NCBI GenBank assembly: GCA_016874035.1
Contig: VGVM01000005.1
Span: 1-64,000 of the forward strand
DNA length: 64,000 nucleotides
Source of the DNA: Gemmatimonadota bacterium
Lineage (GTDB): Bacteria; Gemmatimonadota; Gemmatimonadetes; Gemmatimonadales; Gemmatimonadaceae
Direction of reading: 5' to 3'
Under the pieces are notes generated by a model. That model made no database searches, had not been told where the DNA came from, and saw only the letters and a list, made by a program, of their open reading frames with translations. The position numbers were made by a program, and so were the translations under genes. Below, piece by piece: positions 14,315 to 48,301 of this stretch (positions are counted from its first letter, which is position 1; the number at the start of each line of letters is the position of its first letter).

Positions 14315-15766
14315 ATGCGAAAACGCACCCGTCGCGCCGCGCTGCTCGCGGCACTCCTCGCCGCCGGCCCGAGCAACGCGATCGCGCAGCCGTCCGCGGC
14401 TACGCGACCCGCCCAAGCCAGCTCGGCGATCAACATCCCGTTCGAGACCTACAAGCTGCCGAACGGCCTGACCGTAATCCTGTCCGTGGATCGCACCGTG
14501 CCGCGTGTCGCCGTGGACGTCTGGTATCACGTCGGCTCCAAGAACGAGAAGCCCGGCCGAACCGGCTTCGCCCACATGTTCGAGCACGTGATGTTCACGG
14601 GATCCGGCAACGTCCCCTACGGCTACCACGATCGCTTCACCGAAGGCGTGGGCGGCTTCAACAACGGTTCGACCAACAACGACCGGACGAACTACTACGA
14701 AGTCGTGCCGTCGAACTACCTCGAGACCGCGCTCTGGATGGAAGCCGACCGCATGGGTTTCCTGCTCGAAAAACTCGATGAAGCCAAGTTCGTCGCGCAG
14801 CGCGACATCGTGCAGAACGAACGCCGGCAGGGCATTGACAACCAGCCGTACGGACGCGCATTCGAGATCATCGCCAGCCAGCTGCTCGACGATTCGCATC
14901 CATATTCGTGGCCCGTGGTCGGCTACATGTCCGACCTGCAGAAGGCGACGGTCGACGACGTGAAGGAGTTCTTCCGCCTCTATTACGCGCCGAACAACGC
15001 CACGATCGCGATCGTCGGCGATTTCAATCCCGCGCAGGTGAAGGCCTGGGTGACGAAGTACTTCGGCGACCTGAAGCGTGGCGCCCCGATCGTACGGCCG
15101 ACCGTCAAGCCCGTGACGCTCGCCGCGGAGAAGCGCGTCACCTTCGAAGATCGCGTGCAGGTGCCGCGCCTCCAGGTTGCGTGGCCGACGGTCGGCACGG
15201 ACTCCGACGATGATCGCGTGCTCGACATCGTCTCGGCGATCCTCTCCGGGCCCCGTACCGCGCGCCTGACCAAGGCGCTGGTGTTCGACGCGCAGTCCGC
15301 CGCGAATGTCGGCGCGTTCCAGGCGAGCAGCGAGAACTACGGGTTCTACATGGTGCAGGTCACGCCGCGACCGGGTCACTCGCTCACCGCGTTGGAGACC
15401 GCAATGGACTCCGTGATCGAGCGGCTCAAGCGCGACGGCCCGACCGCCGACGAGATGACCAAGGCCACCGTCGGCGCGGAGTTCGGGTTCGTCTCCGGCC
15501 TGGAGAACACGCTGAACAAGGCCGAGACACTCCTGAGCGGTTCGGTCTTCAAGGGCGACCCGGGCTACTTCAAGCGGGACTACGCCGCCATCAAGGCCGT
15601 GACCGCCGCGGACGTCAAGCGCGTGGCGAACAAGTACTTCACGGCCGGCCGCGTCGTCCTCTCGATCGTGCCGCAGGGCAAGCTCGACCAGGCCGCCAAG
15701 CCCGAAGCCAGCAAGAAAGTCACCGTCGCCGGCGACGGCGCACGCTACGTCGTGGAGGGAAAGTAA
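14315..15766 (+). CDS. M16 family zinc peptidase, catalytic subunit
   Basis: 483 residues from the ATG at 14315, which begins a signal peptide (to about AIAQP). The inverted zinc motif HxxEH is intact as HMFEH (His87, Glu90, His91), and a downstream glutamate in the QNERRQ region supplies the third ligand. The two-domain M16B layout resembles PqqL and processing peptidases. The next gene, 1 bp downstream, encodes a partner lacking the zinc motif. The pair therefore probably forms an active/inactive heterodimer in the periplasm. Confidence 0.9.
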   Translation: MRKRTRRAALLAALLAAGPSNAIAQPSAATRPAQASSAINIPFETYKLPNGLTVILSVDRTVPRVAVDVWYHVGSKNEKPGRTGFAHMFEHVMFTGSGNVPYGYHDRFTEGVGGFNNGSTNNDRTNYYEVVPSNYLETALWMEADRMGFLLEKLDEAKFVAQRDIVQNERRQGIDNQPYGRAFEIIASQLLDDSHPYSWPVVGYMSDLQKATVDDVKEFFRLYYAPNNATIAIVGDFNPAQVKAWVTKYFGDLKRGAPIVRPTVKPVTLAAEKRVTFEDRVQVPRLQVAWPTVGTDSDDDRVLDIVSAILSGPRTARLTKALVFDAQSAANVGAFQASSENYGFYMVQVTPRPGHSLTALETAMDSVIERLKRDGPTADEMTKATVGAEFGFVSGLENTLNKAETLLSGSVFKGDPGYFKRDYAAIKAVTAADVKRVANKYFTAGRVVLSIVPQGKLDQAAKPEASKKVTVAGDGARYVVEGK

Positions 15767-15767
15767 G

Positions 15768-17252
15768 ATGACCATGCACACGCGCATTGCCCGCACACTC
15801 GTTGCGACTGCGGTTGTGACCGCGGTCGCTACCGCGACCATCGGCGCGCAGGCGGCTCCGCGTCAGGCTGCCACGCTCGATCGCACCAAGCAGCCGGTCG
15901 CACCCGCGAGTCCGACGACGCGGATCCCGACCTGGACCAAGGCCAAGCTCGCGAACGGCGCCGAGCTGATCGTCAGCGTGAAGCGCGACCTGCCACTCGT
16001 ATCGTTCACCATCGCGGTCGTCGGTGGGGCGCTGAACTTCGAATCCGACGCCAAGCTCGGCGTCGCGGGCTTCGCCGCCCAGATGATGACGGAAGGCACG
16101 ACGACGAAGTCCGCGGACGCGCTCTCCGACGCACAGCAGATGCTTGGCACCTCGATCAACGTCGGCATCGGTGCGGAGAGCGGCACCATTGGATTCACGG
16201 CGCTCAAGGACCGTTTCGATGCCGCACTCGCGCTCGCGGCCGACATGATGCTGAACTCGACGTATCCCGCCGACGCGCTGGAACGCATTCGCGGCCGCAC
16301 GCTGGTGGGCCTGCAGCAAGCGCGCGACCAACCCAACACGATCGCGGCAAACGTGTTCTCGAAGGTCAACTACGGGGACGCGCATCCGTACGGGCGCGTC
16401 GTCACCGAGGCGACGATCAAGGCTATCACGCGCGAGGACGTCGCCGGCTTTGCGCGCGAGTACTTCAAGCCGGGCCGCGCGGTGATCACGGTGGTAGGGG
16501 ATGTGGACCCGGCGCGCGTGCGGGCCTCGATCGAGAAGGCTTTCGCGGCATGGGCGGCCGGCGGCGAGCGCCCGTCATTCAGCTATCCGCAGCCACCGGC
16601 TCGGAAAGCCCGCGCCATCTACCTCGTGGACAAGCCCGCGGCGGCGCAGTCGGTCTTCCAGCTCGGCCACATCGGCCCCGACCGCTACACGCCGGACTAC
16701 TACGCCCTGCAGGTGATGAACACGCTGCTCGGCCAGCTGTTCCAGTCGCGCCTCAATGCCAATATCCGCGAGCAGAAGGGCTACAGCTACGGCGTCAGCT
16801 CGAGCTACGCGTACGGACGCGGGCCCGGTGCGTTCCGCGCCGGCGGCGGAATCATGACGGCCAAGACCGACAGCGCACTGATCGAGTTCATGAAGGAACT
16901 GCGCGGTGTCCAAGGCGCGATCCCGTTCACCGACGATGAACTCACGCAGGGGAAGGACGCGCTCGTGCAGTCGCTGCCGGAAACCTTCGCGTCGGTGGGC
17001 GGTGTGCGGGGCGCGATCTCCGGCGTGTACGTCCAGGGACTCGGCGACGCCTACTACCAGGAGTACGCGGCCAAGGTTCGTGCCGTGACGAAGGATGACC
17101 TTGTCCGCGTCGCGAAGAAGTACATCGACATCGACAACCTCAACATCATCATCGTCGGCGATCGCGCGACGATCGAGGAGCCGCTCAGCAAGACGGGGAT
17201 CGCTCCCGTCATCCGGCTCGACGTGGACGGCCGCCCGGTGATCACGCCGTAA
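15768..17252 (+). CDS. M16 family peptidase-like, non-catalytic subunit
   Basis: 494 residues with a signal peptide (to about TIGAQ). The position of the HxxEH motif reads GVAGFAAQMMTEG, so the zinc-binding histidines and the catalytic glutamate are missing. The C-terminal M16_C domain with GYSYGVSSSYAYGRG is conserved, as in the glycine-rich, substrate-contacting subunits of heterodimeric M16 proteases. It directly follows the catalytic subunit and is most likely its partner. Confidence 0.88.
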   Translation: MTMHTRIARTLVATAVVTAVATATIGAQAAPRQAATLDRTKQPVAPASPTTRIPTWTKAKLANGAELIVSVKRDLPLVSFTIAVVGGALNFESDAKLGVAGFAAQMMTEGTTTKSADALSDAQQMLGTSINVGIGAESGTIGFTALKDRFDAALALAADMMLNSTYPADALERIRGRTLVGLQQARDQPNTIAANVFSKVNYGDAHPYGRVVTEATIKAITREDVAGFAREYFKPGRAVITVVGDVDPARVRASIEKAFAAWAAGGERPSFSYPQPPARKARAIYLVDKPAAAQSVFQLGHIGPDRYTPDYYALQVMNTLLGQLFQSRLNANIREQKGYSYGVSSSYAYGRGPGAFRAGGGIMTAKTDSALIEFMKELRGVQGAIPFTDDELTQGKDALVQSLPETFASVGGVRGAISGVYVQGLGDAYYQEYAAKVRAVTKDDLVRVAKKYIDIDNLNIIIVGDRATIEEPLSKTGIAPVIRLDVDGRPVITP

Positions 17253-17287
17253 CGGAGGCATCCGCGCCGTCGGAGTCCTGATGTGCC

Positions 17288-17319
17288 GCATGGCCCCAAT
17301 CCGTAGATTGGGGCCATGC
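17288..17319. promoter_or_regulatory. Perfect 14-bp hairpin enclosing the threonine dehydratase start codon
   Basis: GCATGGCCCCAATC (17288-17301), loop CGTA, then GATTGGGGCCATGC (17306-17319) form a perfect inverted repeat. The ATG start at 17316-17318 lies inside the right arm. In mRNA the start codon would be fully paired. It may also end transcription from the upstream M16 pair. Confidence 0.6.
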
Positions 17320-18275
17320 TCACATTGACCCTCGATGACTTCGACCTGGCGCGCAACCGGATCGCCGAGCACATCCACTGGACCCCGCTGCTCGGTTCGC
17401 AGCAGCTGAGCGAGCGCACCGGCTTCGACGTGATGTTGAAAGCCGAGTGCTTCCAGAAGGTGGGCAGCTACAAGATCCGCGGGCCACTCAACAAGTTCGC
17501 GCAGATGCCGGCGGACCAGAAAGCCCGCGGCGTGGTGTGTTCATCCGCGGGGAATCACGCGCAGGGCGTGGCACTCGCCGCGCGCATTCACGGCATCCGG
17601 GCAGTGGTCTGCATGGCGACGAACGCGACGCCGGCCAAGGTCGCGGCCACGAAGGCGTACGGCGCCGAGGTCGTGCTCCATGGGAGCATCTGGGACGAAG
17701 CCAACGAGAAGGCGAAGGAACTCGTCGAGAAGGAAGGCCTCACCTACGTGCATCCGTTCGACGATGCGCAGCTGATCGCCGGGCAGGGCACACTCGGCCT
17801 CGAGGTGGTGCGCGACTGGCCCGAGCTCGATGCGATCATCGTGCCGATCGGCGGCGGTGGGCTCATCGCGGGCGTCTCGATGGCGGTGAAGAGCCACAAC
17901 CCCGGCTGCCGCGTGATCGGCGTCGAGTCGAGCGACGGCCCCGCGATGAAGCGAAGCGTCGAGGCGGGCTCGCTTCAGACGATCGAATGCAACACGATCA
18001 TTGACGGGCTGCGCGTGCGCCGCTGCGGCGAGCTGAACTTCTCCGTCGTGCAGCGATTCGTGGACGAGATCGTCACGCTCCCGGACAAGGAGATCTTCGA
18101 GGCGATGCTCTGGACGATGGAACGCTGCAAGCTGGTGATCGAAGGCGCCGCGGCCGCGCCCGTGGCCGCGCTGCTCCACGGCCTCATCAAGCTGCCGAGG
18201 GGTTCACGCATCGCCGCCGTGATGAGCGGCGGCAACGTGAACCTCGACCAGCTTCGCAACCTGCGGTGGAACTGA
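17316..18275 (+). CDS. ilvA: Threonine/serine dehydratase (PLP-dependent)
   Basis: 319 residues, the length of catabolic or short biosynthetic threonine dehydratases without the C-terminal ACT domain. The PLP-binding lysine is Lys53 in GSYKIRGP. SSAGNHAQGVA contacts the substrate carboxylate, and the phosphate-binding loop is GGGGLIAGV near 178-186. It converts threonine to 2-oxobutyrate and ammonia. The symbol could equally be tdcB, since no regulatory domain is present. The start codon is buried in a perfect hairpin. Confidence 0.85.
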   Translation: MLTLTLDDFDLARNRIAEHIHWTPLLGSQQLSERTGFDVMLKAECFQKVGSYKIRGPLNKFAQMPADQKARGVVCSSAGNHAQGVALAARIHGIRAVVCMATNATPAKVAATKAYGAEVVLHGSIWDEANEKAKELVEKEGLTYVHPFDDAQLIAGQGTLGLEVVRDWPELDAIIVPIGGGGLIAGVSMAVKSHNPGCRVIGVESSDGPAMKRSVEAGSLQTIECNTIIDGLRVRRCGELNFSVVQRFVDEIVTLPDKEIFEAMLWTMERCKLVIEGAAAAPVAALLHGLIKLPRGSRIAAVMSGGNVNLDQLRNLRWN

Positions 18276-47641: not shown

Positions 47642-48301
47642 CTAGTTCTGCAGGATGCGGCGGACCACCACGCGTCCGCCGTACTTGAGGTGCGGACAAT
47701 CTCGCGCGAGGCGGAGCGCCGCCTCGCGCGAGCGCGCAAAGACCAGGAAGTACCCGACGAGCTGGGTCGCCTCGCCCAGCTTTTCCTCGACTTCGACCTC
47801 GCCGCTCGAAGCGGTGGCGTAGCGCGCGATCGAGGCCTCGGCCAGCCCGAGCGCCTCACCTCCGACTACGGCGGCATCGGGACCATGATCGCGGGAGGCC
47901 CAGCGGCTGTACTCTGCGGATCGCGCGACCTCGCCAATCGAGTCCGCCGGCTCTTCGCCGCCGTAGAGCATGAGGGCGTACGTCGCGAGCGGAGCTGCGT
48001 TCGCGCCAACGATCGTATCCGAAGTCGCGGTGGTCCCCGAAGGGGCGTTCATGGCCGCAACCGGTTTACCCGGTGCGAGGAATCGGCTCGCGGAATACGA
48101 ACCGGCGACGAATGCGATCGCTCCGACACCGGCCGCAAGGGCCCACGAGGCAACGCTCAGCGTCCCGCGCCAACGCGAACGCAGCAGGCCCTCCTGCCGC
48201 AGCGCGTGAATCGTCGAATCGGCCACAGCCGGCGGTGGATCGATTTCGCGCGGAAGGCGCCGCAGCCAGCCGGCGATCAGGTCATCGTCTTGTTGCGTCA
48301 T
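47642..48301 (-). CDS. Anti-sigma-like membrane protein with C-terminal YCII domain
   Basis: 219 residues. Residues 1-45 are cytosolic and charged, and one transmembrane helix lies at about 46-70. After an Ala/Thr-rich linker, residues 105-217 match the YCII/DGPF fold (ATYALMLYGGEE, VVGGEAL, LVGYFLVFARSREAALRLA, GGRVVVRRI). YCII proteins are often encoded beside ECF sigma factors of the ECF41/42 type. Here the start overlaps the ECF sigma gene stop (ATGA), supporting a regulator pair. No zinc-binding anti-sigma motif is visible. Confidence 0.65.
   Translation of the reverse strand: MTQQDDDLIAGWLRRLPREIDPPPAVADSTIHALRQEGLLRSRWRGTLSVASWALAAGVGAIAFVAGSYSASRFLAPGKPVAAMNAPSGTTATSDTIVGANAAPLATYALMLYGGEEPADSIGEVARSAEYSRWASRDHGPDAAVVGGEALGLAEASIARYATASSGEVEVEEKLGEATQLVGYFLVFARSREAALRLARDCPHLKYGGRVVVRRILQN

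Follow-up and report, generated by a model that had tools for sequence, protein, structure and literature searches.

A probable U-poor 3'-end hairpin overlapped by a predicted leaderless promoter at a dehydratase start codon in a Gemmatimonadota genome

Introduction

Why should the start codon of an apparently ordinary metabolic gene lie buried in the stem of a perfect hairpin? The question is raised by a 64,000-nt stretch of DNA from a Gemmatimonadota bacterium (GenBank assembly GCA_016874035.1, contig VGVM01000005.1, positions 1 to 64,000, forward strand), the whole of which we refer to as the window. Here a gene for a threonine/serine dehydratase-like enzyme begins just downstream of a pair of genes for M16-family peptidase-like proteins, and its ATG falls inside a 14-bp inverted repeat. 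An initial annotation offered two readings of this arrangement: either the ribosome has to melt a very stable structure before it can initiate, or the hairpin doubles as the terminator of the upstream M16 pair. We suggest that the answer lies closer to the second of these, and that the dehydratase message may never contain the whole hairpin.

Materials and Methods

The window was combined with 40 further stretches of its genome into a sample of 864 kb, in which genes were called with a simple codon-model script rather than a published gene finder; the start positions used below are therefore approximate. For the census of hairpin locations, perfect hairpins with arms of at least 11 bp and loops of 3-8 nt were sorted by where they lie. 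To gauge chance occurrence, the window was re-created 20 times from a first-order Markov model, and each version was scanned for perfect hairpins with loops of 3-12 nt. Dehydratase orthologues were read in two overlapping sets, one of 21 loci and one of 41 named loci (of 80 fetched).

Results

The locus comprises three genes. The first M16-family gene (14315-15766) is followed by the second (15768..17252, +; script gene call, PF05193 and PF00675), and the hairpin begins 35 nt past the stop of the latter. The dehydratase-like gene (17316..18275, +) encodes a PLP-dependent enzyme of 319 aa (PF00291), whose score of 377.7 bits against the threonine ammonia-lyase model TIGR01127 is just under the cut-off of 378.75. 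The inverted-repeat scan confirms the geometry that had been described: the left arm, GCATGGCCCCAATC (17288..17301, +), is 100% complementary over 14 bp to the right arm, GATTGGGGCCATGC (17306..17319, +), with a 4-nt loop, CGTA (17302..17305, +), between them, and the ATG at 17316-17318 lies wholly within the right arm. Folded as RNA, the 32-mer reaches -27.2 kcal/mol (z -6.55). The RNA fold also allows an outer 6-bp stem, below a 2x1 internal loop, between GATGTG (17280..17285, +) and CACATT (17321..17326, +), the latter within the coding sequence.

A start codon so placed is unusual, as the initial annotation had it. With the criterion relaxed to perfect arms of at least 9 bp and loops of 3-8 nt, a hairpin arm overlaps just one of the 724 called starts in the 864-kb sample, that of the dehydratase gene, and none of 316 and 294 starts in 400 kb from each of two relatives. 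One further candidate, the hairpin at L086:14661-14693, abuts a called start; that start call is doubtful and the case was left uncounted.

The window hairpin exceeds chance expectation, with no perfect hairpin of at least 14 bp, and one of 13 bp, in the 20 Markov versions, and two of 14 bp in the window itself. The second of these (47701-47732), which also has a 4-nt loop, falls within a gene called on the minus strand (47642-48301). The census speaks more directly to what such hairpins are. In the 864-kb sample of the window's own genome, 14 were found in 38,760 bases of gaps between tandem genes, 5 in 7,631 bases of convergent gaps, 7 in 792,431 bases of coding sequence and 1 at the edge of a stretch; the 20,521 bases of divergent gaps held none, where about 8 would be expected at the pooled tandem and convergent rate. 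The counts in tandem gaps, convergent gaps, divergent gaps, coding sequence and stretch edges were 7, 8, 1, 1 and 1 in relative G002, and 4, 2, 0, 3 and 1 in relative G028. Among the 14 tandem cases the hairpin begins 6-354 nt past the upstream stop, and in 13 of them within 6-75 nt. Two hairpins fit less well, namely the tandem one lying 354 nt past the nearest upstream stop and one of 10 bp, under the 11-bp cut, in a divergent gap. The pattern overall is that of gene-end signals, and the two relatives agree.

These figures bear on the simplest alternative, that the palindrome arose by chance and has no function. Perfect hairpins do occur within genes, as in the called gene at 47701-47732 and in the seven coding-sequence cases of the census, and the sequence of the window hairpin is not conserved (see below). 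The strong enrichment in gaps following gene ends, the empty divergent gaps of the own-genome sample and the lack of hairpins of 14 bp or more in the randomized windows nevertheless make this explanation highly improbable. We also note that four of the gene-end hairpins (L033:6695-6724, L085:1280-1309, L086:2841-2867 and L086:14661-14693) are followed by much the same tail (GTGTTT or GTGTTTT), which may be an end signal particular to this lineage.

If the hairpin marks a gene end, it does so without the usual tail. A GC-rich stem-loop of 14 bp, 35 nt downstream of the M16 stop, is what a classical Rho-independent terminator would present in stem and position, but the tail, TCACATTGAC, has 3 T in 10 nt and no U-tract, and a terminator scan of 17000-17600 returned no terminator-like site. 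The earlier suggestion that the hairpin terminates the M16 transcripts stands as the best supported reading, despite the U-poor tail. Similar hairpins in this genome have tails only modestly rich in T: over 23 pairs of gene end and hairpin within 100 nt of each other, the mean is 3.2 T in 10, against 1.6 by composition, a figure in which some convergent hairpins count twice and two coding-sequence hairpins are included; without these two it is 3.5 over 21. GC-rich hairpins lacking a U-tract are described, in passages of PMC13289151, as the 3' ends left by Rho release and subsequent trimming. The genome encodes Rho (G000:C24:9788-11026; 600.7 bits, the cut-off being 509.45), and it therefore seems that Rho release followed by trimming is at least as likely here as direct termination. 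A second Rho-like match in the same genome (G000:C5:72856-73929) scores 434.2 bits against that cut-off and may be a divergent Rho paralogue.

The dehydratase side of the overlap is best approached through the promoter that may lie within it. A TANNNT box, TAGATT (17304..17309, +), spans the end of the loop and the right arm, and is separated from the ATG by exactly 6 nt; the 15 bases before the ATG contain no GGAG, GAGG or AGGA, and hence no Shine-Dalgarno motif of these kinds. The spacing is a recurrent one in this genome. In the 864-kb sample, 32 of 706 called starts have TANNNT at this distance, whereas positions farther upstream average 2.2 occurrences each. A Shine-Dalgarno-like motif accompanies one of these 32 starts, as against 159 of the other 674, and the fifth position of the box, which the search left free, is T in 21 of the 32. 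Relative G002 likewise peaks at 6 nt (15 of 310 starts; background 1.9), and G028 has a weaker peak, to which 6 nt contributes 5 of 289 starts and 7 nt another 6, over a background of 1.4. Neither a sigma-70 promoter pair at the dehydratase start nor a clear -35 signal upstream of the 32 inspected starts was found.

In passages of PMC3160421 and PMC12340547, a TANNNT motif about 6-7 bp before an open reading frame that has no Shine-Dalgarno motif, as in the TA-led leaderless genes of Deinococcus and Actinobacteria, is read as placing the transcription start at or next to the start codon. Both features are found at the dehydratase gene. Given the TANNNT enrichment at 6 nt and the missing Shine-Dalgarno motifs, we predict its mRNA to be leaderless: on the 6-nt spacing, transcription would start at the A of the ATG (17316, +). 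The message thus probably begins at its start codon or next to 17316, and transcription from the ATG would leave the left arm of the hairpin out of it. The first 60 nt of such an mRNA fold little better than shuffled sequences (z -0.78).

Among dehydratase orthologues, the spacing recurs in some loci with other letters: exactly 6 nt before the ATG, G004 has TAGTTT, G002 TACATT and G008 TAATTT. Five orthologues at 83-85% identity carry TANNNT at 6 nt in three cases and at 8 nt in one, with none in the fifth; over the 41 named loci, TANNNT is at exactly 6 nt in only 4. The pairing itself fares worse. The hairpin is kept in 0 of 21 and 0 of 41 loci of the two overlapping sets. Since the hairpin sequence is not conserved, selection on it is not demonstrable. 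It is also unique within its genome. A 401-bp query found no match apart from its own locus and the palindrome within it, and the idea of a mobile repeat was rejected.

The same comparison weighs on a further possibility, that the palindrome acts as DNA, an operator over the spacer and -10 box at which a repressor of the dehydratase gene binds. The -10 box and start point are a common place for repressor sites, and a perfect dyad sits over both. However, operators of this kind would be expected to recur or to be conserved. At up to 3 mismatches, the core of the palindrome turns up once more in the 3.08-Mb genome (that site having 3), as against twice for the reversed control pattern; at up to 1 mismatch it is absent from all 17 further genomes of the genus examined; and no orthologue read retains the palindrome. 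The outer pairing, moreover, is shifted by one base, a feature that fits RNA better than it fits a DNA dyad. We regard an operator as distinctly unlikely.

Discussion

We propose that the hairpin is likely a U-poor structure at the 3' end of the M16 transcript, and that a leaderless promoter of the dehydratase gene overlaps it. On RNA leaving the M16 pair, the structure would form 35 nt past the stop and set the 3' end of the transcript, either through U-poor intrinsic termination or through release by Rho, after which the RNA would be trimmed as far as the hairpin. In the DNA, the loop and right arm would also carry the -10 box and +1 of the dehydratase gene, whose mRNA would start at the ATG without the left arm, leaving the start codon free. 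Only on read-through RNA from upstream would the start codon be paired, and only there would its burial be relevant. What the sequence shows is the repeat, the class it falls in and the -10 spacing; the start point and the termination or trimming are inferred. The notion that the ribosome must melt the hairpin thus finds no support for the gene's own mRNA, in view of the -10-like box 6 nt before the ATG, of the leaderless transcript that it predicts and of the absence of the pairing from every orthologue read. A start past the left arm, here a predicted one, and a lack of conserved pairing are the two results that the initial annotation had named as refuting it. The case would then be ordinary for the most part, two gene signals in tight overlap, and would stand out in one respect, as the sole start overlapped by a hairpin arm among the 724, 316 and 294 sampled.

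Each half of this proposal has its counterpart in described systems. TA-led leaderless genes have been described for other groups, Gemmatimonadota being unnamed in the main texts of PMC3160421 and PMC12340547, and our literature search, by title and abstract opening and, for PMC10783764, by passages, yielded nothing on leaderless genes in this phylum. With the U-poor 3' ends in passages of PMC13289151, the window hairpin shares a GC-rich perfect stem soon past the stop, a weak U tail and the presence of a Rho gene. Unlike those ends, it also covers the -10 box and start codon of the next gene. The present data add sequence evidence for leaderless starts and U-poor gene-end hairpins in a Gemmatimonadota lineage.

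We would make the distinction between this proposal and translational control, in which the normal mRNA of the gene would hold its start codon paired until a signal freed it. The very stable fold that includes the ATG (-27.2 kcal/mol; z -4.69 and -4.99 when folded in context) speaks for such a switch, but the predicted transcription start lies past the left arm and what remains folds little better than shuffled sequences, as given above. The hairpin is missing from all orthologues read, and no Rfam match was found in 16800-17800 at E values up to 1; neither result supports a conserved RNA element. The overlapping C and R genes of PvuII, as treated in the abstract and passages of PMC2997769, offer a parallel: there too a hairpin is predicted over the initiation region of the next gene, as at the dehydratase, although that second gene has an RBS and shares a transcript with the first. 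Disrupting the predicted hairpins upstream of that gene, one of them RBS-occluding, had no significant effect (PMC2997769, same passages). Translational control of the dehydratase gene is, on this evidence, very unlikely. More generally, where a genome has leaderless genes, the signal that ends an upstream gene can extend over the promoter and start codon of its neighbour, and a hairpin around a start codon is then not in itself a sign of translational control.

A more ambitious version of our proposal would have the overlap itself serve as a firewall. The one 32-bp palindrome would have three roles: in upstream RNA it would be the end hairpin, in DNA it would supply the downstream promoter with its -10 region, and in read-through RNA it would lock the start codon. 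If this were true, the dehydratase would be translated only from its own leaderless mRNA. We put it forward tentatively, and consider it unlikely.

Some further indication comes from the surroundings of the M16 gene in relatives. Among the flanks of M16 homologues in 10 relatives, three (L060, L061 and L062) have perfect hairpins of 11-18 bp lying 16-44 nt past the end of the match, and a perfect hairpin of at least 11 bp is absent from the other seven within the stretch read. L063 has, by eye, an imperfect hairpin with a T run, G008 a very long imperfect hairpin and L056 one of 8 bp; the remaining relatives have no perfect hairpin of at least 7 bp there. Among the loci compared, G008 is the only relative in which an M16 gene lies beside the dehydratase gene. 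Between the two genes there, a long hairpin of -126.5 kcal/mol extends from the stop codon as far as the -10 box, where pairing ends on the first T of TAATTT-N6-ATG; its sequence is unrelated to that of the window hairpin. A strong hairpin between M16 and dehydratase genes would thus recur in both genomes that have this gene order, with unrelated sequences; these are two cases, and the recurrence is suggestive only. The G008 gap (L054:2932-3143) holds a near-palindromic dispersed element of about 190 nt, which looks like a miniature repeat element; counting both strands, it has 42 matches in G008, and the window's genome contains 12 that are weak and partial.
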